Of a stretch of 20,909 nt of DNA, positions 945 through 15,409 are shown one piece after another. The notes beneath the pieces were generated by a model. That model searched no databases, had not been told where the DNA came from, and saw only the letters and a list, made by a program, of their open reading frames with translations. The stretch is from a virus: IMG/VR virus record IMGVR_UViG_3300042924_003555, positions 1-20,909 of that record; one strand, given 5' to 3'. Position 1 is the first letter of the stretch; each line of letters begins with the position of its first letter. Position numbers and translations under genes: made by a program.

Positions 945-1134
945 CGCCGTGGTCCCTCACCGGCATCCGCGCTGTGTGCACCTTTGCCGCTCGCGGCCCT
1001 CGATACGATGAACCAACCGGCACGCCTGCTGAGCGTCGCATATGTTCAGCGATCTCCTCCAGCGCTGGGTCGTTGGGTTTGCGGTCGCCGCCGTAGGGCA
1101 GTTCCGGCAGCGGTTTAATCGACGGGTATTGCAT
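937..1134 (-). CDS. Small hypothetical protein
   Basis: About 65 residues from an ATG at 1134 (MQYPSIKPLPELPYGG). GGGAG lies 10 bases upstream, inside the end of the csrA-like gene. An in-frame ATG at 1173 would add 13 residues that lie wholly within csrA, so the shorter form is preferred. The protein is rich in proline, glycine and basic residues, is probably largely disordered and has no membrane segment. It overlaps csrA by about 20 bases and the nuclease gene by 8. The function is unknown. The dense packing supports it being translated. Confidence 0.6.
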   Translation of the reverse strand: MQYPSIKPLPELPYGGDRKPNDPALEEIAEHMRRSAGVPVGSSYRGPRAAKVHTARMPVRDHGDG

Positions 1135-1306
1135 CTTTACTGGTCTCCCTGTTGATGAGTTCGCTTCGGACAATATCCACGGTCAGGGGGGCGACGATGT
1201 CGATTGACACACGCCCCGGGCTGATTTCGCAGATTGTAATTTTGGCCACCGTTTCGGAGCCGCGGAACAGCTCAACGCCGTCGCCGACTTTGCGGGTGAT
1301 TCTCAT
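1115..1306 (-). CDS. csrA: CsrA-family RNA-binding regulator
   Basis: A 63-residue protein that aligns along its length with CsrA/RsmA (61 residues in E. coli). MRITRKVGDGVEL matches the first strand and turn of the family (MLILTRRVGE). GRVSIDIVAPLTVDIVRSEL matches the last two strands; R47 corresponds to the RNA-binding R44 of E. coli CsrA. CsrA works as a dimer that binds GGA motifs in mRNA leaders and blocks or activates translation. The R15-G-S17 loop and the C-terminal tail differ from the host type. Its ATG overlaps the TGA of the ParB-like gene, so both are probably made from one mRNA whose leader carries two hairpins (2151-2189). Targets, whether host or phage, cannot be told from sequence. 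Confidence 0.85.
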   Translation of the reverse strand: MRITRKVGDGVELFRGSETVAKITICEISPGRVSIDIVAPLTVDIVRSELINRETSKDAIPVD

Positions 1307-2139
1307 TCGGTTGCCTTCGTGCTGGCAAACAAGTCTGGGAAAATCGGCTTCAAATTCTCTCGCAGCTCGTTCAGCATTTCAATTTCCTGCTGTGCAGATA
1401 TGCGAATAATCTTCGCGAATGCGTTCGCTGAATTGAACGCAAACAACGCACGGCAAAACGTGTTTGGCGTGAAGTTGCGATCCATAGCCGGCACTTGCTT
1501 ATTAAACGCCTCAACGGAACTCCACATGGCGTTTTCGCCAGCCACCCACGCGCGATAGCTTTCCAGAACTCCTTCGCAGTGGTCTGCAATTCCAACGCCC
1601 GAAATCAACCGCACCTGCAGCAAATTGCAAACCACTGCCGCTCGCACCATTGCCGACCCGCGAAATCGCTCGCGGTTTCTGCTGACTGCAACGGCATCAC
1701 TAATCGCGCTTCGCGATTGATGCAAAATGTACTGTGTTTCGTGCGGTCGTGGTGTTGTCGCGTGCCGAACTATTGCGTAGCGAAACACCGCATTCGCCGT
1801 CAACACGTGCGGCTTGTCCTCATTCAGGATATCACTGATCGTCCGCCTTGCTCCGAAATCAATTGGAAGGTCCATTGCTGTTTCCGCGCTGTCATAGACA
1901 GCAACCCAAAACAACTGCGACATTCCGCTGTGAACAACTGCCTTCAGTCGATGCTGCCCGTTAATGAGTCGCCCACTGGCCGTGACTGCGATTGCTTCGT
2001 GTGTCTGCCTCCATTTTCCCTCCCGCATGTCCTTTGCGTATCCCTGCCATGTGCGCGGCCTCAGCGGTCGGTTTCCGTCGTTTCGCGTCAGCATCTCGGC
2101 CGCGATTTCTGGCGTTATTAGCCTTTGTTCGATAATCAT
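1303..2139 (-). CDS. ParB/Srx-fold protein
   Basis: A 278-residue protein. The N-terminal 100 residues contain LINGQHRL (58-65), which matches the G-x-HR-type box of the ParB/sulfiredoxin N-terminal fold, preceded by the usual segment in which an allowed value is named (WRQTHEAIAVTASG). The C-terminal 150 residues are helical and not recognised. There is no clear helix-turn-helix of the chromosome-partition ParB type and no parA neighbour, so a segregation role is unlikely. ParB-fold proteins in phages include CTP- or ATP-binding regulators and nucleases. The function here is open. It is the first gene of the left operon, with AAAGGG about 9 bases before the ATG. Confidence 0.7.
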   Translation of the reverse strand: MIIEQRLITPEIAAEMLTRNDGNRPLRPRTWQGYAKDMREGKWRQTHEAIAVTASGRLINGQHRLKAVVHSGMSQLFWVAVYDSAETAMDLPIDFGARRTISDILNEDKPHVLTANAVFRYAIVRHATTPRPHETQYILHQSRSAISDAVAVSRNRERFRGSAMVRAAVVCNLLQVRLISGVGIADHCEGVLESYRAWVAGENAMWSSVEAFNKQVPAMDRNFTPNTFCRALFAFNSANAFAKIIRISAQQEIEMLNELRENLKPIFPDLFASTKATE

Positions 2140-2150
2140 TGTCTTTCCCT

Positions 2151-2167
2151 TTCTGCACCTTGCAAAA
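2151..2167 (-). promoter_or_regulatory. Leader hairpin 0b (AGG loop) before the ParB-like gene
   Basis: On the minus strand this folds into a 7-bp stem, 5' arm TTTTGCA and 3' arm TGCAGAA with one T-G pair, closed by the loop AGG. It ends 11 bases before the ATG and touches the ribosome site AAAGGG. It shares the core GCA-AGG-TGC with six other leaders in this window, but the outer stem is different and still pairs. Confidence 0.6.
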
Positions 2168-2172
2168 CCCAG

Positions 2173-2189
2173 CCCCGCACCTTGCGAGG
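2173..2189 (-). promoter_or_regulatory. Leader hairpin 0a (AGG loop)
   Basis: Minus-strand arms CCTCGCA and TGCGGGG form a 7-bp stem (one T-G pair) around the loop AGG. It lies 5 bases from hairpin 0b, so this leader is the only one with two copies. A possible -10 box (TACAAT, 2194-2199) lies just upstream, but no good -35 box is seen at the right distance. Confidence 0.6.
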
Positions 2190-2193
2190 CTTC

Positions 2194-2199
2194 ATTGTA
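2194..2199 (-). promoter_or_regulatory. Possible -10 box for the ParB-like/CsrA operon
   Basis: TACAAT on the minus strand lies 8 bases before the GCAAGGTGC core, close to where the -10 boxes of the other cassettes lie (about 13). No TTGACA-like -35 box stands 16-18 bases upstream, so the promoter may be weak or activator-dependent. The rest of 2200-2299 shows nothing recognisable. Confidence 0.35.
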
Positions 2200-2299
2200 T
2201 CAAACCACCCCCGGCAATCATCTGCAATGGGGATCAGCCATTCAGACCAGCTCAGCCGATCATTGCACGCGGTCCCTGTGCTGCGGGGGTTTGTTGTGT

Positions 2300-2872: not shown

Positions 2873-2891
2873 GGCCTGCACCTTGCGGGCC
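2873..2891 (-). promoter_or_regulatory. Leader hairpin 5 (AGG loop)
   Basis: Minus strand: GGCC pairs with GGCC around a C-A mismatch, then GCA pairs with TGC and closes the loop AGG. The core is the same as in the other leaders while the outer stem differs completely and still pairs, which points to a selected structure. Confidence 0.6.
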
Positions 2892-2899
2892 GATGTCAG

Positions 2900-2929
2900 A
2901 CGATACCCGCGGACGACGGGCGAAGTCAA
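2900..2929 (-). promoter_or_regulatory. Promoter of cassette 5
   Basis: Sigma70-like: -35 TTGACT (2924-2929), 18-base spacer, -10 TATCGT (2900-2905). It drives the 22-residue peptide gene and probably 2300-2572. Its sequence is less related to the other four promoters, and the AATCT box is absent. Confidence 0.5.
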
Positions 2930-2955: not shown

Positions 2956-2997
2956 GCCCGGGCCGGTCTCCCGGGGTGGCCTTACCGGGGCTTGTCA
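2956..2997 (-). repeat. 42-bp GC-rich repeat, copy A, with hairpin
   Basis: Identical over 42 bases to 4221-4262. On the minus strand the repeat starts exactly with the TGA stop of the gene at 2995-3294 and ends in a hairpin with CCCGGG arms around AGACCGG. Only a weak T run (AATTT) follows here, so termination is possible but not certain. Confidence 0.75.
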
Positions 2998-3294
2998 TCC
3001 ACAAATCAGATGCAGTGCCAGTTTCTGCTGGCGGTTCGCTTTAGTCCAGAACCAGCCAGCCACACAGTGCCAACAGCAGTTCACGCTGTGGCTGTCCTTT
3101 GCCGTCCGATTGAATGCAGTGTTCACCTGCAGGGCGCTTCGCGGAATCCACACTGTCAGGTTTCGCTCAGCGTTGTGAACCTTGATTGCCTTGTCCGTCG
3201 CTGCCATAACATCCAGAACGAAGTCAATGTGGTCTTCCACGCATCGCGTGCAAAACAAAGCGTCGCCAACCTGTGCTTCGGTAACAGTCTTCAT
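2995..3294 (-). CDS. Hypothetical protein of cassette 1
   Basis: A 99-residue protein with the start MKTVTEAQVGDALF. The AAGGGGCTGAG ribosome site and promoter of cassette 1 directly precede it. C15-x-x-C18 (FCTRC) and a second cysteine cluster near residue 73 (NCCWHC) could bind a metal. The middle (KAIKVHNAERNLTVWIPRSA) resembles the small phage domain in which a polar strand is followed by WIPKSQ; this is a similarity by eye, not a family call. The function is unknown. The stop codon forms the first bases of repeat copy A. Confidence 0.7.
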   Translation of the reverse strand: MKTVTEAQVGDALFCTRCVEDHIDFVLDVMAATDKAIKVHNAERNLTVWIPRSALQVNTAFNRTAKDSHSVNCCWHCVAGWFWTKANRQQKLALHLICG

Positions 3295-3320
3295 CTCTCA
3301 GCCCCTTGCTTAGTTGTGCT

Positions 3321-3343
3321 GTCTTCCGCACCTTGCGTCCGAC
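3321..3343 (-). promoter_or_regulatory. Leader hairpin 1 (AGG loop)
   Basis: Minus strand: outer stem GTC/GAC, a symmetric purine internal loop (GGA opposite GAA), inner stem CGCA/TGCG and loop AGG. Identical to hairpin 2. The following ribosome site of cassette 1 (3297-3311) contains AAGGGG and is shared with cassettes 2, 3 and 4. Confidence 0.65.
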
Positions 3344-3349
3344 GGGTGA

Positions 3350-3377
3350 ATCTTAGCACCTTATCGTTTTGTGTCCA
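3350..3377 (-). promoter_or_regulatory. Promoter of cassette 1
   Basis: -35 TGGACA (3372-3377), 16-base spacer, -10 TAAGAT (3350-3355). The spacer begins CAAAACGATAAGGTGC, the same as in cassette 4. The AATCT box lies 13 bases upstream at 3391-3405. Confidence 0.65.
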
Positions 3378-3405: not shown

Positions 3406-3416
3406 TCAAAAGATTA

Positions 3417-3437
3417 CCCCGGGCCGGTCTCCCGGGG
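3417..3437 (-). terminator. GC-rich hairpin after the cassette 2 gene
   Basis: Minus strand: arms CCCCGGG and CCCGGGG around AGACCGG, a perfect 7-bp stem. It is the hairpin part of the 42-bp repeat without the rest. TAATCTTTT follows, a poor T run, so it may be a partial terminator or a 3'-end stabiliser for the 56-residue protein gene. Confidence 0.5.
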
Positions 3438-3452
3438 TTGAGTGTGTCGGGT

Positions 3453-3623
3453 TTACTTGCAGTCGAAGCAGACAGAGTCAATTTCATCCAGAGCGTCGAA
3501 ATCTTCCATCATCGCGAGAAACTTGTTGTAATCGACCATGTTTCCAAACGTCTTTGTTTCGAAATGCCACGCACCAGCGGTTCCAAAGTCGCGGCCAGTT
3601 TTCACGTTTACGGTAATGGTCAT
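3453..3623 (-). CDS. Small hypothetical protein of cassette 2
   Basis: A 56-residue protein (begins MTITVNVKTGRDFGTAGAWH, ends VCFDCK), preceded by the promoter, hairpin and ribosome site of cassette 2 and followed by a GC-rich hairpin. It is acidic in its second half (MMEDFDALDEIDS) with a C-x-x-C near the end, and has no membrane segment. A longer open frame over the same DNA (3484-3840) reads through the promoter and is not real. The function is unknown. The context, with its own promoter and hairpin, is the best evidence that it is a gene. Confidence 0.7.
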   Translation of the reverse strand: MTITVNVKTGRDFGTAGAWHFETKTFGNMVDYNKFLAMMEDFDALDEIDSVCFDCK

Positions 3624-3652
3624 CGCTCAGCCCCTTGCTTTTTGTTTGTCCT

Positions 3653-3675
3653 GTCTTCCGCACCTTGCGTCCGAC
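3653..3675 (-). promoter_or_regulatory. Leader hairpin 2 (AGG loop)
   Basis: Same 23 bases as hairpin 1: stems GTC/GAC and CGCA/TGCG, internal loop GGA/GAA, apical loop AGG. Confidence 0.65.
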
Positions 3676-3681
3676 GGGTGA

Positions 3682-3709
3682 AGTATAGCTGCTTATCGTT
3701 TTGTGTCCA
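3682..3709 (-). promoter_or_regulatory. Promoter of cassette 2
   Basis: -35 TGGACA (3704-3709), 16-base spacer, -10 TATACT (3682-3687). Drives the 56-residue protein gene. Confidence 0.7.
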
Positions 3710-3790: not shown

Positions 3791-4204
3791 TCACGGCGAC
3801 TTATGCAGCAAGAGACCTTCCAGCCGCTCCACTTCTGCACTGATTGCCTTTAGGGACACTGCAGCGCTTGTAATGGCCTTCTCCGGGTCAATGAACATTG
3901 ACGCGCTGTTGCAAAACCCGCCTTTGGCGGATGCAATCGACGCGCTGACGCTTGCTGTCGGAAATTCCGCCAAACAATGCAGCAGAACCTCACTAGCTCG
4001 CAGTTGCGGGGCAATCAGCAACAACGCGCCAATGTCCTCCACCGACTGCACCGGAATCGCCAAAACGGTTGTTTCCGCCTCATCATCCCACGACGAAGCG
4101 TAATTGTGCCAGTCATCCCATTTTGTGCCGCGAAGCGCACGGCTGGCATCGCTTCTGTCCACAGAATAAAACTGAAGTACCCACTCTTGCTTTTTGCTGT
4201 TCAT
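3791..4204 (-). CDS. Hypothetical protein
   Basis: A 137-residue protein from the ATG at 4204 (MNSKKQEWVLQFYSVDRSDA). I chose it over an ATG 12 bases upstream because GGAG stands 6 bases before it. There is a likely soluble N-terminal half with W-rich segments (KWDDWHNYASSWDD) and helical later segments; the last 35 residues (ITSAAVSLKAISAEVERLEG) look like a coiled coil. No family is recognised. It has no cassette of its own and sits 17 bases after the hairpin of repeat copy B, so it depends on read-through from the DUF6011 gene. Confidence 0.65.
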   Translation of the reverse strand: MNSKKQEWVLQFYSVDRSDASRALRGTKWDDWHNYASSWDDEAETTVLAIPVQSVEDIGALLLIAPQLRASEVLLHCLAEFPTASVSASIASAKGGFCNSASMFIDPEKAITSAAVSLKAISAEVERLEGLLLHKSP

Positions 4205-4220
4205 GGCATTCTCCAAAAAA

Positions 4221-4262
4221 GCCCGGGCCGGTCTCCCGGGGTGGCCTTACCGGGGCTTGTCA
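4221..4262 (-). repeat. 42-bp GC-rich repeat, copy B, with terminator-like hairpin
   Basis: Identical over 42 bases to 2956-2997, and again starting at the TGA stop of the gene before it (4260-4262). The hairpin (CCCGGG arms around AGACCGG) is followed at once by CTTTTTT, which makes a good intrinsic terminator. The same T run is joined to the ribosome site GGAG of the next gene, so termination and translation start are close neighbours. Confidence 0.75.
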
Positions 4263-4655
4263 GTTTTCGCCCATTTCCTTTTCAGCACACGTCGGACCAA
4301 TCCCACTGGCCACAGACTCCGGTGTTGTCAGGTCTCGGTTGCATCGTCGGCAACAGCAACTTGCGGAAATCTGCAGTCCGTGCTTTTTGGCAACTCGCGG
4401 CAGGTTTGTCAACATCGCAGCGTACTGGCTGAACACTGTGCCTTCGTGCTTCCGCCAGACTCGCACGCCACTTTTTTCAACGAACCCGAATCCGGTGTAA
4501 TCCTCTGTGTTGTCTGGCCCCGTCAGCAGGCTAACAATTCGCTTGCCAGCCAGCTTGCTGTCTGCGGATGCCGTGCGAACCTGAAACGTCCTGTGATTTC
4601 CGGTTGCTGGATTTTTGATTGTCCAAGTCCCGTTGTGTGTCAGAATGCTTTCCAT
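4260..4655 (-). CDS. DUF6011-type zinc-ribbon protein of cassette 3
   Basis: A 131-residue protein. Residues 10-60 (TWTIKNPATGNHRTF, then KRIVSLLTGPDNTEDYTGFG) are typical of small phage and plasmid proteins that precede a C-terminal zinc knuckle. C102-x-x-C105 with NRDLTTPESVASGIGPTC up to C123 matches DUF6011 (C-x-x-C-x-R-x-L-T-x-P-x-S-x-x-x-G-I-G-P-x-C). The biological role of the family is not known; a nucleic-acid or protein-binding role is inferred. The start follows the cassette 3 ribosome site. The TGA opens repeat copy B. Confidence 0.8.
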   Translation of the reverse strand: MESILTHNGTWTIKNPATGNHRTFQVRTASADSKLAGKRIVSLLTGPDNTEDYTGFGFVEKSGVRVWRKHEGTVFSQYAAMLTNLPRVAKKHGLQISASCCCRRCNRDLTTPESVASGIGPTCAEKEMGEN

Positions 4656-4679
4656 CTCTCAGCCCCTTGCTTTTGTCTC

Positions 4680-4702
4680 GCCTCCCGCACCTTGCGTTCG
4701 GC
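4680..4702 (-). promoter_or_regulatory. Leader hairpin 3 (AGG loop, covarying stem)
   Basis: Minus strand: outer stem GCC/GGC replaces GTC/GAC of hairpins 1, 2 and 4, with both arms changed so that pairing is kept. The internal loop is GAA/GGA, the inner stem CGCA/TGCG and the loop AGG. This double change is the best single piece of evidence for an RNA structure. Confidence 0.7.
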
Positions 4703-4710: not shown

Positions 4711-4739
4711 AGTATCGTTTGTTTTCCCGTTTGTGTCCA
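4711..4739 (-). promoter_or_regulatory. Promoter of cassette 3
   Basis: -35 TGGACA (4734-4739), 17-base spacer, -10 GATACT (4711-4716). The spacer sequence is the most diverged of the four. Confidence 0.6.
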
Positions 4740-4777: not shown

Positions 4778-4798
4778 CCCCGGGCCGGTCTCCCGGGG
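4778..4798 (-). terminator. GC-rich hairpin after the LPD29 gene
   Basis: Same 21 bases as 3417-3437 (7-bp stem CCCCGGG/CCCGGGG, loop AGACCGG), 16 bases after the stop of the LPD29-type gene and 1 base before the upstream box of cassette 3. No T run follows. Confidence 0.5.
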
Positions 4799-4814: not shown

Positions 4815-5387
4815 TCAGTTCACGGTCTGTTTTTCCAAGCGATCCATCCAAAAGTCAAGCGTTTCGCCATTGTGGTACAATCGCCAACTGCTTTCGCCAT
4901 TGTCTTTGATTCCGTAGTGCTCAACCGTCCGTTTTCGCAGCTTCTCAAAGTATTCGGCGGACATGTCGCGATGCGTGCTCATGTACTTAACACCGCTGCC
5001 GACCAGCACGGATCCCGCCTCTGGGCAGTCGGTAGCATAGCCTTCCACGCAACCCATTGATCCGCAGGTGCCACGGCTTTCAGCCGGTGTCATTTCGCCA
5101 GACGGCAGGAGCCAGTTGCGGCTGCTGTAGGCCATGTCGATGCTACCATCAAAGCCCCCGAACGAAAACTGACCGATGACACCGCTGACTTCGCTGCTGA
5201 CAGGGCCATCCACCCATGAAACGTCAATCCCGCTGTAGTCACTGCGGACGCCGAACTTAACTCCGGGAAACGCCTTTTTCAGTGCGGCTCGTACCAGAAC
5301 AGCCACGTCCTTCGCTGCCAAATATGCTACGCCATTTTCGTTGCGATTGTTACGAGCGGTTTCGATAATGCTTTTGACGGTTGCCAT
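4815..5387 (-). CDS. LPD29-domain protein of cassette 4
   Basis: A 190-residue protein. Residues 25-90 (KDVAVLVRAALKKAFPGVKF, then VRSDYSGIDVSWVDGPVSSE and FDGSIDMAYSS) match the large polyvalent protein-associated domain LPD29, found in phage and plasmid proteins as a lone domain or as part of polyvalent proteins. Cysteines near residues 108-121 (TCGSMGCVEGYATDC) could hold a metal. The exact activity of the domain is not known; association with anti-defence or entry proteins is family context only. The start MATVKSIIETA follows the cassette 4 ribosome site and hairpin. Confidence 0.78.
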   Translation of the reverse strand: MATVKSIIETARNNRNENGVAYLAAKDVAVLVRAALKKAFPGVKFGVRSDYSGIDVSWVDGPVSSEVSGVIGQFSFGGFDGSIDMAYSSRNWLLPSGEMTPAESRGTCGSMGCVEGYATDCPEAGSVLVGSGVKYMSTHRDMSAEYFEKLRKRTVEHYGIKDNGESSWRLYHNGETLDFWMDRLEKQTVN

Positions 5388-5415
5388 TGCTCAGCCCCTT
5401 GCTTTTCGTTGTTCT

Positions 5416-5438
5416 GTCGTTCGCACCTTGCGTCTGAC
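5416..5438 (-). promoter_or_regulatory. Leader hairpin 4 (AGG loop)
   Basis: Minus strand: outer stem GTC/GAC, internal loop AGA/AAC, inner stem CGCA/TGCG, loop AGG. The stems and apical loop are those of hairpins 1 and 2, while three bases of the internal loop differ. Confidence 0.65.
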
Positions 5439-5444: not shown

Positions 5445-5472
5445 AGTATAGCACCTTATCGTTTTGTGTCCA
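5445..5472 (-). promoter_or_regulatory. Promoter of cassette 4
   Basis: -35 TGGACA (5467-5472), 16-base spacer, -10 TATACT (5445-5450). It overlaps the last codons of the small membrane protein gene at 5456-5638. Confidence 0.7.
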
Positions 5473-5646: not shown

Positions 5647-6126
5647 TCACGCTGCCCACCATCGCAAATCCGCGCCCGTATCGTGCACCAGGACGCGCAG
5701 GAACCCAGCCGCCTGGAGTTCACTGAGAAGGTCGTCCGCGGTAATGTTGCCGTAATACTCGCCCTGCCGCAATGGTCCACCGTCAACGGCACTGTGAGGC
5801 GCTCGCAGCGGCCCCGCACACGTGCCAACGAAAAACCCGTCAGCCATCAGCAGTGGACGCACCCTGCCAACAATATCCCGCCACGCGCTCGCGTGCTCCA
5901 GCACCTCGCAGCACACGACGACGTCCCACGCGGCATCAGATTCCCAGTCGAGGAAATCGCAAACGACATCCACACCAGGGCCACGTTGCCGGTCGATGCC
6001 GAGCCACCTAGCGTTCGGGAAGTGCACTCGTGCCGTGCCGTTAATGTTCAGGCTTCCGATCTCCAGCACCTGCAACGGATCCGTGCTGCCGTATTTACTG
6101 AGCCACTCCGCCGCCTCAGCGTGCAT
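5647..6126 (-). CDS. SAM-dependent methyltransferase
   Basis: A 159-residue class I methyltransferase. E22-I-G-S with G30 is the SAM-binding motif I, G43-I-D45 the acidic residue of motif II, and CCEVLEH (72-78) the family motif of Methyltransf_11-type enzymes. A typical later segment is PHSAVDGGPLRQGEYYGN. The substrate is not shown by the sequence; small size and the two glycosyltransferase-like genes before it suggest a sugar or glycan. I chose the ATG at 6126 because AGGA lies 8 bases upstream and it overlaps the previous gene by 11 bases; the open frame upstream of it is the glycosyltransferase gene in another frame. Confidence 0.82.
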   Translation of the reverse strand: MHAEAAEWLSKYGSTDPLQVLEIGSLNINGTARVHFPNARWLGIDRQRGPGVDVVCDFLDWESDAAWDVVVCCEVLEHASAWRDIVGRVRPLLMADGFFVGTCAGPLRAPHSAVDGGPLRQGEYYGNITADDLLSELQAAGFLRVLVHDTGADLRWWAA

Positions 6127-6856
6127 TTGCGTTTTCCTGCAGAACGTACTTGATGTGTGGCGACTGGTGCTCCTGATAGTTGCCACTCGGAACGCCGGAT
6201 GGTTCACAGGCTCGAACAATTGCTCGGAGGTTGCAAGCGAAGCGGTCGCTGTCGATTCGCTTCAGGGGCTTGCGTCGATATCGTGGAAGGGTTGATGTAG
6301 CGGCGTCCCCATGCCTAACCCATATCCAACCTGGGGACTCGCTGACAATCCGCGAGGGCCACGTCGCCGGAATCTCCCAGTGCCGTATTTGGTGAGGGTC
6401 TTCGTTCGCGTCCGTGCACAGCGTCGGGAATTGATTGCCCGGGTGCCTGAGCAAATGGATTTGCTGCCGCCAGAATGTGTAGCCGACCGGCCACAACAAC
6501 GCCTCCCGCTGCTCCCGTGCGGTTGCCTGCAGCAGTTCGCAGAAATCCACACTCAAGACATCATCATCGTCCATTCTGGAAACCAGTTTCCAGCCGCCCG
6601 GCAGCTCCCAATTCTCTTTGTACAGCCGCCATTCCGGCCGTTCGATAAACCGAACTTCGCAGCCCGTTGAAATAAACACCTCACACCGTGCGTCAATGTG
6701 GACATCATCAGGGCAGACGGCGACATGGACGACGGGTTTCGTCTTCTGTGTTCTCAATGCCACCGCGCAAGTGTGGCGCGTTATCTCCAGCCGCCTCGCT
6801 GACAGCTCCGCCCGATCCGCCGGATACGCGGATTGAATGATCATGATATGTTTCAT
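6116..6856 (-). CDS. Glycosyltransferase-like protein (rhamnosyltransferase type)
   Basis: A 246-residue protein. SRMDDDDVLS (residues 93-102) is a DxD-type nucleotide-sugar/metal motif in the form found in the putative rhamnosyltransferase family PF11316 (R-x-D-x-DD), with the expected N-terminal segment that lists sugar-nucleotide strands (PVVHVAVCPDDVHID). There are no membrane segments. Family enzymes add sugars to polysaccharides or proteins; donor and acceptor are unknown. Its ATG overlaps the stop of the preceding gene (ATGA) and the methyltransferase starts inside its end, so the three genes are translated together as part of the tail operon. Confidence 0.7.
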   Translation of the reverse strand: MKHIMIIQSAYPADRAELSARRLEITRHTCAVALRTQKTKPVVHVAVCPDDVHIDARCEVFISTGCEVRFIERPEWRLYKENWELPGGWKLVSRMDDDDVLSVDFCELLQATAREQREALLWPVGYTFWRQQIHLLRHPGNQFPTLCTDANEDPHQIRHWEIPATWPSRIVSESPGWIWVRHGDAATSTLPRYRRKPLKRIDSDRFACNLRAIVRACEPSGVPSGNYQEHQSPHIKYVLQENANAR

Positions 6857-7920
6857 CGCTTGCCCTTTGCCTCCATAACTGCTCGGTGTGTGTGCCGCGG
6901 TCGCCGCTTAACCACTCGCCCCGGGTTGCCTCTGGTGACTCGCTTAAATTCCGGCCGGTAACCGCTGCTGATTGTCTCCCCGCTCGCTGCGTTCGGCAAG
7001 CGGTCTTCGAGGAATCGCCGCATGGCTGGCGTCCAGCACTGCGCGAGGTGATTCATCACACTCGCCCCGGCGGTTGCTCGTTCGATATCCTGCGGGCTTC
7101 TGGCGTCCGTCAGCCTCGCAAAGAAGGGCCGCGTACCCCAGGGCTTCGCTCGGTATTCGTTGCCGTAGAGAACCTCCCAAAGCATTGTGTTGGCGTGCAG
7201 GTTATACGTGCCGAACAGGTCGCGCAGTTTCTGTTTTTCGACGGTATGCGGGAGATGTGTGGCGAAGTCGTATTGAGTTTTTCCGCGGCCTGCCAGCGCT
7301 CGCATTGTGTTTGTCTTCCGGCGCTGCCATGAGTTGCCCCGGGACTCATGCCACCGCCATGCTCGCGGCGTGTCAAGGTCGTCCCATGCGACGGGCTTCA
7401 AGAAATAAACGTCGTCCATCATCCAGACGAATTCGCTGTCAATCTCTGCATGAGTCGCCATCACCCACATTTTGTTCAGCATGTCCCGATATGGTCGGTT
7501 GCTGTGATTCGGGCCGATACGTGGACAGGGAATCACGTGGCCGCGAAACCAGTCCGGGCGGTCCCCAACGATCGTGATTTTCGCCGTGCCGCGGTAGTTG
7601 GTTTCGACTGACCGAATTGAGAATCGCAGTTCATCGCCTGAGGCTCCGGCATGCCAGTACGGCCAGACAAACTGGACGGCGGATTCCCGGGCCTTGAATG
7701 TGCCGCAGCCGCCACAGGATCGAGGCTGTGGCGTGTACTCGCCGCGGTGGTATTTGACCACCTGCAGGCGTTCGGTTTGCGCGAAGAAATCCGGCTCTCT
7801 GCGAAAGGGGCAAATCTCGCAAATCGCTAAAGATACACTGCCGCTGTGGCAAAGGTCTCTGCGATTATGGCATACGCAGTTTTCGCCCGTTGTCTGCCCG
7901 CGATACACGCAGCCTTTCAT
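6853..7920 (-). CDS. Glycosyltransferase-like protein with cysteine-rich N-terminus
   Basis: A 355-residue protein from the ATG at 7920, which overlaps the TGA of the cysteine-rich protein gene; the upstream open extension (to 8031) is that gene in another frame. Residues 1-75 hold eight cysteines (C4, C15, C17, C24, C34, C37, C69, C72), in a pattern that could bind zinc or an iron-sulfur cluster. From residue 82 a glycosyltransferase-like domain begins (ITIVGDRPDW); FVWMMDDVYFLKP with D169-D170 recalls the DD motif of Stealth/capsule-type sugar-phosphate and hexose transferases. The C-terminus is basic. A metal-binding domain fused to a transferase is uncommon. The reaction is inferred. Confidence 0.65.
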   Translation of the reverse strand: MKGCVYRGQTTGENCVCHNRRDLCHSGSVSLAICEICPFRREPDFFAQTERLQVVKYHRGEYTPQPRSCGGCGTFKARESAVQFVWPYWHAGASGDELRFSIRSVETNYRGTAKITIVGDRPDWFRGHVIPCPRIGPNHSNRPYRDMLNKMWVMATHAEIDSEFVWMMDDVYFLKPVAWDDLDTPRAWRWHESRGNSWQRRKTNTMRALAGRGKTQYDFATHLPHTVEKQKLRDLFGTYNLHANTMLWEVLYGNEYRAKPWGTRPFFARLTDARSPQDIERATAGASVMNHLAQCWTPAMRRFLEDRLPNAASGETISSGYRPEFKRVTRGNPGRVVKRRPRHTHRAVMEAKGKR

Positions 7921-8645
7921 AGCGACACCGGCGTTAGTGTGACCGTGTCGGGAATGCCCGGATCTTCTCCACTGAACGGATTGCTCCAACACGGGCCAAT
8001 ACCGTAATCGCGGGAGTTTGACGCGGACCACATTTTAACTAACGGTGCCCCAAAAATCTTGTGCGGCACCTTCACGACATCCAGAGTCATCGAGCCAAGG
8101 CAATTGTAGGGCGGAGTTCTCTGCGCTATCGGCAAAACATACTCCACCCAGGTGAACTGGTTTAGACGGAACTCGTAATAGACGCGCAGTTTCAGATTAG
8201 TAGCCACCCCGCCGGAGGGTATGCACGTTAAAGTATTGCCCATGTACAATACAACCCGCGACGCATAAAACGGCGGCGCTGATGGTGTCAGCACGCACGC
8301 AGGCTGCCCATTAATTGTTGCCCCGCGACCGGATTGCTCATTGCTGCCCCAAATACAACAATCACTTGTGTACGGTGGCAGATTCAGTCTGCGATACAAC
8401 CGAAAGGACGATTGCCCCGAATATAAACCGCAACACGGAAAAATGCCGCCCTGCGTGGTGCCGCCATATGCCCATGTGCACTGATAAACAGTCGGGCCAA
8501 CCCCCGCAACGCAAGACAGGCAGCCGCTGCTTTCGATAACAGGCGGATTGCTTCCTGAGCCGCTCGCTATCGCAGACGGTGGCTCTGACTGGCTTGGTGT
8601 GTCGTTACTGTCCCCTGTGCATTGACAGCCGCAACCTAATAACAT
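7917..8645 (-). CDS. Cysteine-rich tail-region protein
   Basis: A 242-residue protein not recognised from any family. It contains 14 cysteines, many paired (GCGCQC at the start, GCLSC, PCC, DCC), with a glycine/serine-rich N-terminal 50 residues and a beta-rich remainder (LKLRVYYEFRLNQFTWVEYV). The start follows GAGG at 7 bases, and the frame is closed by the previous gene's TGA, so no signal peptide can be added. The position after the tape measure and two tip proteins suggests a tail-tip, fibre or receptor-binding component; this is by order only. Confidence 0.6.
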   Translation of the reverse strand: MLLGCGCQCTGDSNDTPSQSEPPSAIASGSGSNPPVIESSGCLSCVAGVGPTVYQCTWAYGGTTQGGIFPCCGLYSGQSSFRLYRRLNLPPYTSDCCIWGSNEQSGRGATINGQPACVLTPSAPPFYASRVVLYMGNTLTCIPSGGVATNLKLRVYYEFRLNQFTWVEYVLPIAQRTPPYNCLGSMTLDVVKVPHKIFGAPLVKMWSASNSRDYGIGPCWSNPFSGEDPGIPDTVTLTPVSL

Positions 8646-8654
8646 GCTGTCACC

Positions 8655-9104
8655 TCACGGAGGGGATGGACCGCCAGGCGGTTGATTTTCCAGCAGACTG
8701 TCGACTGCACTGCCGCCGGGAATTGATTCACTTTGCGGGCTGCAGTCCGCTTTGTAGGGCTGCCACTCCCCGTCAATCCACTCGATGCCAATCAGCGTTC
8801 CGGCGTCAATGCTGATGTTTTCAAATCGGTTGGTGACGGTCTCCTCCTGCGTCGTCAATTCGTAGTTGCCCGCTGTGTTTTTACGGGCAATGCGAACAAC
8901 TGCCGTTGATGGATCACTTTTCCAGTCGACAGCCGCGTAAAGGTCAGACTGCAACACACCGAGCATATTTAGCGGCTGCTGCGTGCCTGGCCCACGTCGC
9001 CGGTCCAATATGCTCACCACGGCATTCACAAGGCTGTTTAACGCTGCAGCAGTCAACCGCTGCCCGCGCTCAAACGCCTGCGGTCTGCGGTCGCCCTGTG
9101 TCAT
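8655..9104 (-). CDS. Hypothetical tail-tip protein
   Basis: A 149-residue protein starting MTQGDRRPQAFERGQRLTAA; its ATG overlaps the TGA of the previous gene (an ATG five codons upstream is also in frame). The N-terminal segment, with ALNSLVNAV, resembles the short helix that opens many small tail-tip or fibre-attachment proteins. The C-terminus is proline- and glycine-rich (QPPGGPSPP). No catalytic motif is seen. It is assigned to the tail by its place between 9101-10000 and the cysteine-rich protein. Confidence 0.6.
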   Translation of the reverse strand: MTQGDRRPQAFERGQRLTAAALNSLVNAVVSILDRRRGPGTQQPLNMLGVLQSDLYAAVDWKSDPSTAVVRIARKNTAGNYELTTQEETVTNRFENISIDAGTLIGIEWIDGEWQPYKADCSPQSESIPGGSAVDSLLENQPPGGPSPP

Positions 9105-10000
9105 GTGCTGGCACTCCACAGGTTGTTAAACTCAAAGAGCTGGAACAGCGGGGCAAAAGTATCGTAAGCCTTGATTTTGTCGTAGTCGCCCGTGTCTGGT
9201 CGCAATTGATGATTCCACCCGTAGATGTCGGCTGTCGCTGGTGCCGCACCTCCCTTGCCCGTGGTTGTGAGTGCCTTCTGGGCCTTCTCTACGAATCGTA
9301 GCGTAAGCTTTCGTGTTGAAAACACGCCGTCAAACGAAAGAGAAACCTCATCATCAAAACCATCAAACAGCAGCGTCTCCGGCTGAAATACCTGTGGGCT
9401 TCCCGGCAGTCGGCACGCAGTTTGATTCACGCAGCCTTTCATGTTAGACAGCGTAATCCACGGCACAATTTTCACCTGATGCCACGTCACCGTGTGTTGC
9501 GTCGCGGAATCTGGAATCACCGCCGCAATGTCCGCCGGAAGTGCTTTGGAGTCACTTTCCCAAATCAGCGCCCGAGCAACAACACTGCGAAACTCCACAT
9601 TACTTGTCTGGCTGTAGGTCGCCCACGTTCCAGCCGGAAGCGGTGAAGGCTCACCCGGATCATTCTGCTGCTGCTGGTCAGTCTGCAGTGGGCTGTAGGT
9701 AATCGTGATCCGCGCGAGCGATCCCGTGTGTTCCAGCTGCTGCGTGTTAGGATCTGTGATCGTCGCGGCTGCTGGCTTGTTTACCAGCCGGTTAATGCGG
9801 AACTTATCCGCCAGCACCCCAGGCCAGTAGCTGGAGTAAGACGCCGGAAGGCCGAACGGGCCGGATGTGTAGTGAGCCGCGATGAACTGCCAGCGGTCTT
9901 CCCACGCAGTCAGGAAGATTCGCGTAAAATCGAATTCGCCCGCACGGCTGCCAGACTCTTCCGGGCTATCTTCATGCTCCTGAAACGCTGGATACGTCAT
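9101..10000 (-). CDS. Minor tail protein
   Basis: A 299-residue protein immediately after the tape measure gene, whose stop overlaps its ATG. It is mostly beta-rich and aromatic (FDFTRIFLTAWEDRWQFIAA), with a Q-rich stretch QTDQQQQND near residue 107. The C-terminal segment YGWNHQLRPDTGDYDKI is followed by a phenylalanine-rich end. The position fits the minor or distal tail protein that caps the tape measure. The exact homologue is not recognised. Confidence 0.6.
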   Translation of the reverse strand: MTYPAFQEHEDSPEESGSRAGEFDFTRIFLTAWEDRWQFIAAHYTSGPFGLPASYSSYWPGVLADKFRINRLVNKPAAATITDPNTQQLEHTGSLARITITYSPLQTDQQQQNDPGEPSPLPAGTWATYSQTSNVEFRSVVARALIWESDSKALPADIAAVIPDSATQHTVTWHQVKIVPWITLSNMKGCVNQTACRLPGSPQVFQPETLLFDGFDDEVSLSFDGVFSTRKLTLRFVEKAQKALTTTGKGGAAPATADIYGWNHQLRPDTGDYDKIKAYDTFAPLFQLFEFNNLWSAST

Positions 10001-11499
10001 CCGAGTACCCCCAGTGTGGCGAGCCCGCCGATTCCGTTGTTGATTTGCTCAAGCCGCGCCACTGCCTCAGTTTGCTGCTGCAACTGGTTCTGTGCGATTT
10101 CGGCCAGCTTGTCCTGCTGCTGTAGTCTGTCCTGCAGTCGCTGAAATGTCTGCAGTGCTCCGGCGCGTTCCACTCGCTGCTGTTCAGCCTGCGCAGCCGT
10201 TGCCCCGCCCAATTGCTCGAAGGCGGTCATGTCCCCGCCTTGTGTTGGCGGCGCGGCGCCACGATTCCTTTCCGCTCCAGTTTGTGGCCCTCTTGCCGCG
10301 GCCCTATTGGCTTCAATGCGCTGCTGACGCACAAGGGCCAGTTCCGCTTTCACCTGGTCCAATACGCCGCCAGACATCGCCGCCGAAAACTCCATTTCGG
10401 GCAGCGCCTGAAACGCCGCTACGCCCTGCAATTCCTGCAAAATGACATCGGGTCGCAGGTTGTTCGCAATAGCCTTTCCAGCATTCATGCTGTACTCAAC
10501 CAACTCGCCGAGCCACGTCTGAACGTCCGCGAAAAACAGCCGAAACTGATCTGGTAGACTGGCCCCAATAACCGCCACGGCCACGCCAAAATCGGCAAGG
10601 TTGTTTTGCATCTCAGTAAAGAATCGCTTGCTTGTGGTTAGCCATTGCTCTGTGCGAGTCTTAACGTCGGTGACACCTTCTGCCGTGCTGTTGAGAAACT
10701 CCAAGAACCGATTGATTTCAGGCAGCAACGCGCTTCCGAATGCGATAGCCACCTGCTCAACATTCGTCTGGAATTTTGCAAACTGCCCGGCCGTCGTTTG
10801 TGACATGCGATCATTCATTCCCGCCAGTCGCCCGGTGCCAGTGGTCAGCCCCTCTAAGGCTGCCCGCACCATCTCGTAACTGATCTTCCCATCCTCCATG
10901 TCTTTTTTAAGGTCTGACATGCTGCGGCCAGTCATCTTACTGATTTCAAACAACGGGCTAAAGCCGCTGTTGATGAGCTGATTCGCCTCCTGCCCCATCA
11001 GTCGCCCAGCCGCCTGAACCTGTGCCATGCCACGGGCCAACAGCATCAATTGCTCTGTGTCGCCCTGTGCCACTTCCGTGAGATTGGTGAGCACTCCAAA
11101 CGCCTCGCCGCCCGCCATGCCGAAGTTCATCATCAGTTTTTGAGCTTGCGCAAGATCCTGCGTTCCAAAGACGGTTTTCTTGTCCAGTTTGCGAATATCG
11201 TCCAGCATTTTCCGGGCTGATTCGCCGCTACCCGTCAGCACCTCAAATGATATCGCCGTCTTCTCCGCCTCTGCCGTCAGGCTTAGCATTTTCGTCACGC
11301 CTGCAGCCACCCCAACAGTCGCCAGAATGCCGCCCACGCCGCTGAATGCCGAGCGAATGCCTCCCAGTGCACCGCCTGCGCGTTTTGCTGCGGACACGAT
11401 GCCGTCCATTGCTCCGGCGGCTTTTTTGGCCTCCGTGTTCACCTGCTGCATCCCGTCAGCAGAGAACAGCACCTGTGCTTCCTGGACTGTGATTGCCAT
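9997..11499 (-). CDS. Tape measure protein
   Basis: A 500-residue protein. The N-terminal 300 residues match the phage tape measure domain: a helical start with an Ala/Gly-rich hydrophobic segment (GALGGIRSAFSGVGGILATV), then EKTAISFEVLTGSGESARKM and the LAQAQKLMMNFGMAGGEAFG region that is characteristic of the family. Residues 430-490 are a glutamine-rich coiled coil. The protein fixes tail length by threading the tube; 500 residues would suit a short tail of roughly 75 nm at 1.5 angstrom per residue (an estimate). Its ATG follows directly after the stop of the GT frame. Confidence 0.9.
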   Translation of the reverse strand: MAITVQEAQVLFSADGMQQVNTEAKKAAGAMDGIVSAAKRAGGALGGIRSAFSGVGGILATVGVAAGVTKMLSLTAEAEKTAISFEVLTGSGESARKMLDDIRKLDKKTVFGTQDLAQAQKLMMNFGMAGGEAFGVLTNLTEVAQGDTEQLMLLARGMAQVQAAGRLMGQEANQLINSGFSPLFEISKMTGRSMSDLKKDMEDGKISYEMVRAALEGLTTGTGRLAGMNDRMSQTTAGQFAKFQTNVEQVAIAFGSALLPEINRFLEFLNSTAEGVTDVKTRTEQWLTTSKRFFTEMQNNLADFGVAVAVIGASLPDQFRLFFADVQTWLGELVEYSMNAGKAIANNLRPDVILQELQGVAAFQALPEMEFSAAMSGGVLDQVKAELALVRQQRIEANRAAARGPQTGAERNRGAAPPTQGGDMTAFEQLGGATAAQAEQQRVERAGALQTFQRLQDRLQQQDKLAEIAQNQLQQQTEAVARLEQINNGIGGLATLGVLG

Positions 11500-11693
11500 T
11501 TATCGCACGTCCTGCTTTTGCCAGATGTCCTCTGGCGCCCAAAACCCGGCGTAAATCAGTGCCTGATACATGGTCAGTTTGCCAACCTGCTCAGGCGTCC
11601 AATGGTACTTTTCGGCCATGCCGCGGAACAGTCCCGCCCACGGAACTGTCCTGCGGGAGGGTAACTGCGCGCCGGGTGGCCCCGGCGCCTTCA
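11500..11693 (-). CDS. Frameshifted T part of the tail assembly chaperone GT
   Basis: Sixty-four residues (begins LKAPGPPGAQLPSRR, ends PEDIWQKQDVR), read only after a -1 slip at the heptamer GGGAAAC (11694-11700). The first shifted codon spans 11694-11692. Joined to the gene at 11691-12140, it gives a 213-residue GT protein, as in lambda. The C-terminal half resembles a small helical chaperone domain (HWTPEQVGKLTMYQALIYAG). It has no start or ribosome site of its own, so an annotation as a separate gene from 11853 would be wrong. Confidence 0.82.
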
Positions 11694-12140
11694 GTTTCCC
11701 AAGCGGTCCTTTTCTTCGACGTGGTGAATCGCCCGGACAAGATCCGCAGCGTTGCCGTACCACGCGATAAAATCGCATCCGAGCTGAATCCCCTTTGCGG
11801 CCGGAAGGCCAGGCGGAAACTCGTCTGGATGGTTCACTGACAACGCCCGCCACAGGCTGTAGGCAAGCCCGCGGAATGATCGATCGAAGCGGTCTTCGTC
11901 TTCCATCGTCGCGATCAGCGGACGCGCCGCAATGTCTGCCGCGATCCGCATAGCCTGCTGCCTGATTGCAGAATCTGAGATTGCCTCAATCCCTGCATAC
12001 GGGCTGCCAACTTTTGCCAAGATGGCTTCTTCCTTGGCTGCGTAGTCGTCGAGGATTCGGACGGCGAGCCTGTAGGTTCGGCCGTCTTTGGTGAGTTCTA
12101 CGGCACGTCTGCCGCAGAGATTAAAAATGCCGTCCGCCAT
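11691..12140 (-). CDS. Tail assembly chaperone (G-like)
   Basis: A 149-residue protein placed between the major tail protein and the tape measure, as is usual for the lambda gpG type. Its N-terminus (MADGIFNLCGRRAVELTKDG) looks like the beta start of these proteins, followed by helices. Just before its TGA the sequence contains the slippery heptamer GGGAAAC in the correct frame (G-GGA-AAC), so a share of ribosomes makes the longer GT product. The family keeps the tape measure protein soluble and guides tube assembly around it. The start follows AGGAG at 9 bases. Confidence 0.85.
   Translation of the reverse strand: MADGIFNLCGRRAVELTKDGRTYRLAVRILDDYAAKEEAILAKVGSPYAGIEAISDSAIRQQAMRIAADIAARPLIATMEDEDRFDRSFRGLAYSLWRALSVNHPDEFPPGLPAAKGIQLGCDFIAWYGNAADLVRAIHHVEEKDRLGN
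11694..11700 (-). promoter_or_regulatory. -1 frameshift slippery heptamer GGGAAAC
   Basis: G GGA AAC in the frame of the chaperone gene is a canonical X-XXY-YYZ site, one base different from the lambda GGGAAAG. The zero frame reaches TGA directly after it, while the -1 frame stays open for 64 more codons. Confidence 0.85.
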
Positions 12141-12155
12141 CGGTCCTTACTCCTG

Positions 12156-12569
12156 TTATGCAATGATATCAAATGCGTTGCCCGACTTACTGGGCGCACC
12201 CTGTCCGTCGAAGGCGTAGTCGATTGCCACTGGGTCGCCTGAATCGGCGTCCAGCGTGATCGGCCCCACCTCTGTGATTACGATTGTGCCGCTAATGTAG
12301 TCGTCAGAATCGGCATGAAACTGTGCGGCCACCTCGTCACCACGGGCCAGCGGTTGCCCGCCGCCGTCGTGTAGCATAATGGTCATCTTACCAGACCACT
12401 CGCCCACACCAATAGTGGTCTTCCGCCAGCCTGCTGTTGAGTTGCTGGCGTACTTTCCTGACGCGCCGCCGATGGTCACCTCCCAGCTCCCGACGTGGTC
12501 AAGCGCCGCTGCTGGGCTGCCCGTCTTGAGGGTCATAGACTTGCCAGTAAACGGTGTTCCTGCGGGCAT
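12156..12569 (-). CDS. Major tail protein
   Basis: A 137-residue beta-rich protein that follows a strong AAGGAG ribosome site at 7 bases. Segments such as GSWEVTIGGASGKYASN and WSGKMTIMLHDGGGQPLARG, and the C-terminal VAIDYAFDGQGAP, are typical of tail tube proteins. It is the first of the tail tube/chaperone/tape measure triad. The function is forming the tail tube by stacking in hexameric rings. The family is clear, although the exact subfamily cannot be named. Confidence 0.78.
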   Translation of the reverse strand: MPAGTPFTGKSMTLKTGSPAAALDHVGSWEVTIGGASGKYASNSTAGWRKTTIGVGEWSGKMTIMLHDGGGQPLARGDEVAAQFHADSDDYISGTIVITEVGPITLDADSGDPVAIDYAFDGQGAPSKSGNAFDIIA

Positions 12570-12581
12570 TGTTTAAGCTCC

Positions 12582-12992
12582 TTATGCTTTCGCAACTGCG
12601 GATTGAATGATGCCGATTTTCAGCACTGTGGTGCTGGTTCCGATTCCGAGCACTGTGACAAAGTCACCAGCCCCCATGTCTGCCACAGGCGCGATGCCTC
12701 CGGCCGTTGTACTCACTACATACACTTGACCAGCCGTCAGAGCTGCGTTGAATGTCAGCGTGCCGCCAGTTGCATACTGCAAAGGCTGGCCACTTGCGGC
12801 GCCGTGCAAGGCAATGCCGACGGCCTTTGATGTTGCCAGTACGTCCGCATCTGCCAACTTCAGTTTGCCGCTGTCAGTGGCGTCTGCATAGACCGGCTGG
12901 CCTGCTGTGATCGTGGCCCCGGCGATGCCCAACGCCCAAAGTGTCGAGGTTGTTTTTTGTATGCTCGCAGCGGTCACGCTGATGTCTGCCAT
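12582..12992 (-). CDS. Decoration-like protein (second copy of the type)
   Basis: A 136-residue protein from the ATG at 12992, which overlaps the TAA of the gene before it (an ATG at 13013 lies inside that gene). It is small, Ala/Gly/Thr-rich and strand-rich: ITAGQPVYADATDSGKLKLA and TAGQVYVVSTTAGGIAP resemble the head decoration proteins of the DUF2190 type. A related-looking protein is present at 16462-16869 beside the capsid gene. This one lies between the tail terminator and tail tube genes, so it might decorate the tail or the head. Confidence 0.55.
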   Translation of the reverse strand: MADISVTAASIQKTTSTLWALGIAGATITAGQPVYADATDSGKLKLADADVLATSKAVGIALHGAASGQPLQYATGGTLTFNAALTAGQVYVVSTTAGGIAPVADMGAGDFVTVLGIGTSTTVLKIGIIQSAVAKA

Positions 12993-13429
12993 TAGACTGC
13001 CCCCTGATGCCACATATCAAATCGAACCGCGGTTTCCCAGACGCCCGTGGCCTCATCCTGTGTGGTCGTGATTGCTCCGGATGGCTTGCAGCAGGTGATA
13101 CTGTTGGCCGTGCCTGTGTAGCTCTGATTTGCCCACTGAGCCACGATCTCCGCCGCAATCTGCTTACTGACGTCGTAGTCGATTGAGAGAACCGACAGAG
13201 TCACCAGTGACCGCCAGCCCTGCGCGGAATTCGTCCGCCATGCTGGTTCTGTGCTAACGTCGAAAATAACAGTCTCATCGAAATAGCCGTCTTCGTCGTC
13301 GTCGCGGTCTTCGCCCTCTTCGCGTGCGTCGATTTCTGCCACCAGCCTATCCGGCGGAATTATTGCCGCGAGGCTGTCTGTCGCTGCCCACCATTCGCCG
13401 AGGACTCTGTCGATTCCGGTGCTGCTCAT
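12992..13429 (-). CDS. Tail-terminator-like protein
   Basis: A 145-residue protein. The order after the gp10-like gene and before the tail tube gene fits the tail terminator or tail completion protein. Its first 30 residues form a helix, then comes a very acidic insertion (DAREEGEDRDDDEDGYFDE, residues 34-52) that is unusual for the family. The C-terminal part (TGVWETAVRFDMWH) resembles the last strand of DUF3168-like proteins. The assignment rests on order and general shape. Confidence 0.55.
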   Translation of the reverse strand: MSSTGIDRVLGEWWAATDSLAAIIPPDRLVAEIDAREEGEDRDDDEDGYFDETVIFDVSTEPAWRTNSAQGWRSLVTLSVLSIDYDVSKQIAAEIVAQWANQSYTGTANSITCCKPSGAITTTQDEATGVWETAVRFDMWHQGAV

Positions 13430-14190
13430 TATCGCACCGTCGCTTTCTTCTTGCCGCCGGTGCTCTTCAGTGTCTGCCTCAGTGATGAACCGACAGCCTG
13501 GCCGAACAAGTGCAAATTATCCTCCACAGCAGGCTTCAAAAATGGTCGCTGCTTGCCGTCCTTTCTGAACTCCCACATTGCCATGTAAGGAGCCTGTTTT
13601 TTATCAACAAACGTCCGGGCCTCGATCTTTCGGCCCTTTGCCCGCAACTCCGCAGATATGCTCTGGCGGCCCTTCCCTGTGCGCATGCGCGGAGGCTCAC
13701 CAGGAAGACTTGCCCCGCTGCGGTCAGATGCTGGCCGGATTGTTGCTGCCGACAGGTCTGCCTCTGCAGTCAAGGCCAATTTGCCGTACTGCCTTTGCTC
13801 CGCTCGCAGTGCCTTATTGGCTGCACGCTGCCGCTGTACTTTATCGCGCTGCCGCCGTCGATATTCGCGCCGCAGCCCAACAATCGCCTTGCTGGTGCGT
13901 TTGCGAGCCTGTCGCACTGCCTTCACTGTTTGCCGTCGGAGTTTGCCGGACTTTTTGAGCAGTCGCCGCGATTGCTTAATGCTGGCTTTCAGGCTTCGCT
14001 TTGTCTGTCGCGTCACCCGCTTGCTGGTTCGCTTTGCAGTTCTTGCAAGGCTATTGGACTGCAGGAAACGCTCAGCGCGACGAACACGCTTGCGAACTTG
14101 TTTGCGCACCGACTTCACCTTGCGAGCGACGGCCTTGTTAGCCCTTGCCCGCAGTTTGGCGAATTGTGATTTTCGGCGCCTCTTTGCCAC
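13429..14190 (-). CDS. HK97 gp10-like protein with a highly basic N-terminal extension
   Basis: A 253-residue protein with a GTG start (AGGA 7 bases before). The first 140 residues are extremely rich in Arg and Lys, like a histone tail or a long basic coiled coil (AKRRRKSQFAKLRARANKAV). The C-terminal 100 residues carry the gp10 signature: SLPGEPPRMRTGKGRQSI, then PYMAMWEF and RPFLKPAVEDN. The gp10 family closes the head-tail connection in siphoviruses. The N-terminal helix expected for gp10 is missing here and is seen in the gene before. Confidence 0.75.
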   Translation of the reverse strand: MAKRRRKSQFAKLRARANKAVARKVKSVRKQVRKRVRRAERFLQSNSLARTAKRTSKRVTRQTKRSLKASIKQSRRLLKKSGKLRRQTVKAVRQARKRTSKAIVGLRREYRRRQRDKVQRQRAANKALRAEQRQYGKLALTAEADLSAATIRPASDRSGASLPGEPPRMRTGKGRQSISAELRAKGRKIEARTFVDKKQAPYMAMWEFRKDGKQRPFLKPAVEDNLHLFGQAVGSSLRQTLKSTGGKKKATVR

Positions 14191-14193
14191 GTC

Positions 14194-14538
14194 TCAATCC
14201 TGTGTGTTTTCCATTGCGTCACGTGCTCGCTGTCGTCTTCGCCTTTGCATCTCTGCCCGTCGCTCACGACTGCGTGCGGCCTTTGCGGCTGCTGATGGCG
14301 TTTGCTGCTGCGGCTTCATTGCCTCGCGTCGCTCCCGTTCCTCAGCTCGCCGCTTTCGCTGTTTCGCGTTCTTTCGATCGCGCTCTTCCTTTGTCAACTG
14401 ATAACGCTTGCTCACTAACTGCCGCGCCACGCCCTTACAGAGCGTTGCGGCATGCTGCAAAGCTTTCCCTGTTGCGGTCTCCAGACTCCGCATCAGTTCT
14501 GGCCTGCGGTCTACTTTCTTTTTTACTTTGACGCTCAC
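14194..14538 (-). CDS. Basic gp10 N-terminal-like protein
   Basis: About 114 residues. I chose a GTG start at 14538 (MSVKVKKKVDRRPEL) since it overlaps the previous stop (GTGA), as in the ATGA pattern of the operon; an ATG at 14556 lies further inside the previous gene. The first 40 residues (ELMRSLETATGKALQHAATL) look like the N-terminal helix of HK97 gp10-type proteins. The remaining part is a highly basic helix. Together with the next gene it looks like a gp10 protein split in two. A separate DNA-binding role is possible. Confidence 0.6.
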   Translation of the reverse strand: MSVKVKKKVDRRPELMRSLETATGKALQHAATLCKGVARQLVSKRYQLTKEERDRKNAKQRKRRAEERERREAMKPQQQTPSAAAKAARSRERRAEMQRRRRQRARDAMENTQD

Positions 14539-15397: not shown

Positions 15398-15409
15398 TTC
15401 TCCGCCGCC

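Follow-up and report, generated by a model that had tools for sequence, protein, structure and literature searches.

We analysed the window, that is, the whole stretch of 20,909 nucleotides (nt) of the IMG/VR virus record IMGVR_UViG_3300042924_003555, with regard to a gene for a CsrA-family protein (csrA1) and to the hairpins found in the leaders of the csrA unit and of other early genes. All the genes discussed here are on the minus strand. csrA1 shares 4 nt (ATGA) with the open reading frame (ORF) that precedes it and is therefore the second gene of its unit, and the leader of the unit (around 2151-2191) folds into two hairpins with AGG triloops, of 9 and 7 pairs when G-U pairs are counted. 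The preliminary description of this DNA had already claimed a CsrA homologue in second position behind two AGG-loop hairpins, and both points hold, the former by the overlap and by the PF02599 match given below. The features of the csrA unit are:

2171-2191, minus strand: first leader hairpin, core at 2177-2185, with a 9-bp stem and an AGG triloop
2151-2167, minus strand: second leader hairpin, core at 2155-2163, 22 nt after the first and distinct from the Shine-Dalgarno (SD) sequence that follows
1303-2139, minus strand: first ORF of the unit, 278 amino acids (aa), matching phrog_5931 of PHROG, no assigned function
1115-1306, minus strand: csrA1, divergent CsrA-family protein of 63 aa, assigned by the PF02599 profile and the best PDB sequence match, with weak Foldseek matches in addition

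CsrA1 passes the Pfam family PF02599 with 30.6 bits (cut-off 27, E=3.3e-7) and its best sequence match in PDB is RsmE (2jpp). Its structural model, made as a single chain, reached a pLDDT (predicted local distance difference test) of 70.5 and a pTM (predicted template modelling score) of 0.48, and the top 14 Foldseek matches were all CsrA, RsmA or RsmE, with weak E-values (0.05-1.3). When CsrA1 was used as the tblastn query, no match was obtained among 50,697 phage records. In the relatives described below, other ORFs take the place of the phrog_5931 ORF ahead of csrA1.

Regarding the leaders, the minus strand of the window has 7 copies of the core GCAAGGTGC and the plus strand none, and the reversed control pattern has no occurrence. 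Two of these copies are in the csrA-unit leader and the other five, starting at 5431, 4695, 3668, 3336 and 2886, head one other early gene each. The 7-mer CAAGGTG is found 9 times in the window against 3.5 expected, and 9 or more copies appeared in 2 of 100 shuffles. The earlier claim that other genes carry one hairpin each is thus correct as far as the hairpins go, since there are five single leader hairpins, but it missed a second CAAGG that lies in the SD region of these genes. The leaders of the five genes are composed as follows:

5416-5438, minus strand: leader hairpin of ORF 4815-5387 (LPD29 domain)
5394-5402, minus strand: second site GCAAGGGGC in the SD of ORF 4815-5387
4680-4702, minus strand: leader hairpin of ORF 4260-4655 (DUF6011)
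4662-4670, minus strand: second site GCAAGGGGC in the SD of ORF 4260-4655
3653-3675, minus strand: leader hairpin of ORF 3453-3623
3630-3638, minus strand: second site GCAAGGGGC in the SD of ORF 3453-3623
3321-3343, minus strand: leader hairpin of ORF 2995-3294
3301-3309, minus strand: second site GCAAGGGGC in the SD of ORF 2995-3294
2873-2891, minus strand: leader hairpin of ORF 2781-2849, a hydrophobic peptide of 22 aa
2855-2864, minus strand: second site GCAAGGAGGC in the SD of the 22-aa peptide ORF, which also fits the canonical C-ANGGAN-G

In the single hairpins of the window an internal loop or a mismatch interrupts the stem, and the outer helix covaries between copies. No Rfam family matches this region.

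For comparison we had nine related viral records (G001-G009). csrA1 is present in the four larger ones (G001, G002, G003 and G006), and all five records that contain it, the window included, have GCAAGGTGC leaders; the fragments G004, G005, G007, G008 and G009 have the same leaders. The copies of GCAAGGTGC lie nearly all on one strand in the four larger records (5:0, 7:0, 1:10 and 0:6). The off-strand copy of G003 and one copy of G006, neither of them leader-like, were left out of the leader counts.

The nine-base core does not differ between any of the 32 distinct first hairpins, in part because the search was keyed on it, so that hairpins with a diverged core would have escaped detection. 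Unlike the core, the stems were outside the selection made by the search. The mean folding energy was -10.7 kcal/mol for the hairpins as observed and -7.4 kcal/mol once their 3' arms had been swapped among them, a value as low as the observed one being reached in 0 of 300 permutations. Furthermore, in an alignment of 19 sequences hand-picked to represent the classes, two second-site hairpins among them, the covariation score was 0.265 against 0.089 for shuffled alignments (0 of 500 reach it) and at most 0.076 for slid ones. The three base pairs adjoining the loop are invariant in this alignment, and the outer helices that we saw include GUC/GAC, GCC/GGC, GGCC/GGCC, CGGC/GCCG, CCGG/CCGG, GCGA/UCGC, CAGC/GCUG and CGCCC/GGGUG. 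An exception is a hairpin of G003 (CACAGGAAC...), which lacks a good outer helix. The outer stems thus compensate around a fixed core, which argues that the hairpins are RNA structures.

A second CAAGG follows 21-30 nt downstream in 39 of 39 first hairpins, a count in which identical copies in different records are included and one region is counted twice. Its sequence is GCAAGGGGCT in 21 cases, GCAAGGAGGC in 8, GCAAGGTGC in 6, GCAAGGGGTC in 2, and ACAAGGATTC and GCAAGGGGCA in one each. In most leaders it coincides with the SD. The csrA-unit leaders of the window, G001, G002 and G006, and the same leader in G005, have instead a second GCAAGGTGC at 21-23 nt and a separate SD-like sequence after it. 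None of the late-gene starts that we checked, some of which are uncertain, has a CAAGG within 25 nt. CsrA dimers are known to span pairs of sites separated by 10-63 nt, most favourably when the distance is more than 18 nt, and glgC has an upstream hairpin site together with a second site that overlaps the SD (PMC7652899). The layout of a CsrA regulon, two sites at such a distance with one of them at or near the SD, is therefore present in all 39 leaders, and the paired sites fit the geometry that a single CsrA dimer would bridge. This correspondence is the main argument that we add to the preliminary description. That the leaders are two-site RNA operators appears well supported by their sequences.

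Five promoter-like sites, recognised by their match to the consensus only, lie ahead of the single hairpins:

5445-5472, minus strand: promoter-like TGGACA-N16-TATACT just before the hairpin 5416-5438
4711-4739, 3682-3709, 3350-3377 and 2900-2929, minus strand: similar promoter-like sites

There are 8 promoter-like sites in the region against 1.8 expected. The five listed end 6-8 nt ahead of the base of the five single hairpins, and from this, as far as the consensus goes, we predict that each of these hairpins stands at the 5' end of its mRNA or close to it. A recurrent terminator-like hairpin (CCCGGGAGACCGGCCCGGG) follows several early genes (3416-3438, 4222-4240, around 2958-2976 and 4778-4798, minus strand), which gives most of these genes the appearance of single-gene transcription units consisting of promoter, hairpin, SD, ORF and terminator. 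The 22-aa hydrophobic peptide (MDPAAAAALIIVILGVLGYFAQ) has its own promoter-like site and two-site leader, and is recognisable at the same place in L003, L012, L014, L016 and L018. ORF 3791-4216 (minus strand) is without a leader hairpin; the terminator-like hairpin with a T run at 4222-4240 stands directly before its ribosome site and could itself be a control element for this ORF.

The larger relatives have a second CsrA gene, csrA2, which is nearer to canonical CsrA than csrA1 and is located a few genes further on in all four of them:

L023:1450-1638, L024:1495-1680, L025:1489-1695 and L026:1429-1755: csrA2

Both csrA1 and csrA2 of the relatives also exceed the PF02599 cut-off. The window appears to end just short of the place that csrA2 has in the relatives. 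Searches with two neighbouring early proteins returned the same four relatives only. The portal proteins form at least three groups (window; G001, G007 and G009; G002, G003 and G005) with around 21-27% identity between groups; a portal match was looked for in G006 and none was detected. The matching stretches of the early region have around 75-97% DNA identity across the window and the relatives. The mosaicism is strong: when 5700-20909 of the window was compared with L050-L055, a near-identical early region was joined to divergent portal proteins. Moreover, the same ORF is found behind different leader classes, for example the ORFs beginning MATVKSIIET and MKTVTEAQ. Differing portals, similar early DNA and these exchanges of ORF and leader class indicate that csrA and the leaders are parts of an early module that can be exchanged and that adjoins at least three different structural modules.

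As to the sequence that would be read, site 1 is C-AAGGU-G in all copies and always in hairpins, that is, a short loop with A-N-G-G and a closing C-G pair, and some second sites contain GGA (GCAAGGAGGC and ACAAGGATTC). In the RsmN complex the equivalent of CsrA T5 reads the first A, that of I3 the last A, and those of V40, V42 and R44 together with L4 read both Gs (PMC3791407; the conversion of RsmN to CsrA residue numbers is ours). In an alignment with RsmE, CsrA1 residues T4, I3, A39, V43, I45 and R47 align with T5, L4, A36, V40, V42 and R44, the last of these being the conserved arginine that binds RNA. CsrA1 therefore keeps the equivalents of T5, L4 (Ile or Leu), A36, V40, V42 (Ile) and R44, and it has Arg or Lys at the I3 position, its N terminus being one residue shorter. 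These residues would fit a reader of A-N-G-G without the last A, the RNA contacts behind this reading being made mainly through the backbone. The internal-loop GGA triplets of the GUCGGA class were also considered as a binding site and were rejected, since the other classes do not conserve them.

We lean towards the view that the leaders are two-site translational operators to which the phage's own CsrA would bind, repressing early genes including the csrA unit. The binder would most likely be CsrA1, possibly acting with CsrA2 or replaced by it. Transcription from the promoters would give short early mRNAs that begin at or close to the base of a hairpin with C-A-A-G-G-U-G displayed in its loop, and with a second, weaker CAAGG site 21-30 nt downstream, usually within the SD. 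One face of a CsrA dimer could then grip the strong 5' hairpin while its other face reaches the second site, and this bridge would block ribosomes. As CsrA accumulates, the early genes would be switched off in the manner of T4 RegA, and CsrA would also hold down its own production, since such a pair of sites heads its unit too. What we read from the sequence is the CsrA-family protein, the stems covarying around a fixed core, the paired sites with their spacing, the promoter-like sites next to the hairpins and the presence of csrA1 and csrA2 in the relatives; binding, the role of CsrA1 as the binder, repression and its timing we infer. A wider proposal, which we advance tentatively, is that a phage CsrA of changed specificity (A-N-G-G, no final A) might govern a phage-wide early-gene regulon by two-site bridging, autoregulated and mobile between phages with different structural genes.

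Several observations weigh against this interpretation. The GGA in a hairpin loop that marks a CsrA site is absent from site 1, which has GGU throughout, and CsrA recognises A-N-G-G-A, every ligand from the E. coli and C. jejuni selections having GGA. The objection already raised in the preliminary description, that AAGGU loops are the consensus minus its last A, consequently stands. CsrA1 is far below the csrA equivalog models (TIGR00202, 22.7 bits with a cut-off of 70.1; NF002469, 19.5 with a cut-off of 73), so that by this measure it is predicted to be a member of the CsrA family and not an orthologue. In addition, the csrA unit of G003, although it contains csrA1, has no hairpin of this kind at its head, whereas the paired sites head that of the window, G001, G002 and G006; therefore autoregulation would not be universal. 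The co-occurrence of csrA and the leaders is weak evidence because the early module is shared by descent, and the nine related records are few and all incomplete or linear. The idea first proposed, that csrA regulates itself and a family of targets, is thus supported in part: it gains strongly, though indirectly, from the covarying hairpins, the second CAAGG in all 39 cases, the two csrA genes of the relatives and the A-N-G-G residues, and loses from G003 and the GGU.

The leaders may also be real two-site RNA operators with another binder, such as the host CsrA, another phage RNA-binding protein or an SD endoribonuclease like RegB of T4. A loop and closing pairs that stay constant while the outer stems covary show only that an RNA is recognised sequence-specifically, GGU is outside the known CsrA specificity, and most of the early proteins here have no known function. 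Nevertheless, the spacing and layout suit a two-faced dimer such as CsrA, and csrA1 is under the same type of leader in 4 of the 5 records that contain it, and thus we regard another binder as unlikely.

The leader could instead be a mobile expression cassette made of a promoter, a 5'-terminal mRNA-stabilising hairpin and a good ribosome site, with csrA serving for host targets only. The position of the hairpins 6-8 nt past the promoter-like sites would agree with this, as would the near identity of several leaders, the same ORF behind different leader classes and the view of phage CsrA proteins as moron genes (PMC9144972). However, a stabiliser requires a stem, whereas a constant loop and constant closing pairs would be superfluous for it, and the second CAAGG that keeps the same distance outside the SD is left unexplained, so we consider the cassette rather improbable. 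An inverted repeat at or near the predicted transcription start could also be the DNA operator of a phage repressor, but the outer arms vary freely with only their complementarity kept, and the paired CAAGG at the SD would have no explanation; we give this very little credence.

Among known systems, the nearest to the proposed CsrA operators are the dual-site leaders of E. coli glgC and csrA bridged by CsrA, RsmA or RsmE. They share with the phage leaders a CsrA-family protein, an upstream hairpin site plus a site at or near the SD, a distance (21-30 nt) within the range of 10-63 nt, sites on the unit of csrA itself and an A-N-G-G loop closed by C-G. They differ in that the phage site 1 has GGU and not GGA, that the targets would be phage early genes with near-uniform leaders, that the phage csrA1 is divergent and one of two paralogues, and that no CsrB-like RNA was noticed in the phage, no systematic search having been made. 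The Bcep22-like phage JC1 and the Pseudomonas rsmM phages also have a CsrA-family gene in their genomes, whereas the papers on them describe no phage targets (PMC9144972, PMC7366521). T4 RegA is similarly a small protein by which a phage represses the translation of many early mRNAs, as proposed here, but it has an unrelated fold and it binds unstructured sites that vary in sequence (PMC3014915). The 5'-terminal mRNA-stabilising hairpins resemble the phage hairpins in their position at the predicted 5' end, whereas the phage hairpins have an invariant loop with invariant closing pairs and are followed by the loop motif a second time.

csrA was present in around 1% of phage genomes in 2020 (PMC7366521). 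Phage csrA is thus already known (PMC7366521, PMC9144972), and in a limited search of the open-licence literature we did not find a phage-encoded CsrA regulon reported. With a likely set of phage targets whose defined sites are visible, the purpose of a phage csrA becomes directly testable. If the sites bind, they would provide a CsrA that reads GG without a following A, useful for understanding how CsrA specificity is set, as well as an independent case of early shut-off of the RegA type.

Finally, some minor candidates were examined. In the phages with canonical CsrA (L039-L041) neither GGA nor AGG hairpins were clearly in excess by a crude test. A search of genome contigs with the promoter-hairpin-SD pattern gave one match, in Diaphorobacter, which was taken as chance as its sequence is not leader-like, so that this search yielded no host. 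A wider pattern over viral contigs gave six extra records, which were chance matches on inspection and without csrA. A short ATG frame (MKPRKVRG...) runs through the csrA leader; we do not claim it, as its sequence is dictated by the hairpin and it has no evident SD. Upstream of the csrA unit there is also a possible hairpin, GCAC-AGGGACCGC-GUGC (around 2264-2284, minus strand), with GGA in its loop and a counterpart in G003 (ACGGACCGC, L035, around 4405-4424), and this could be a canonical CsrA site or the remnant of a terminator.
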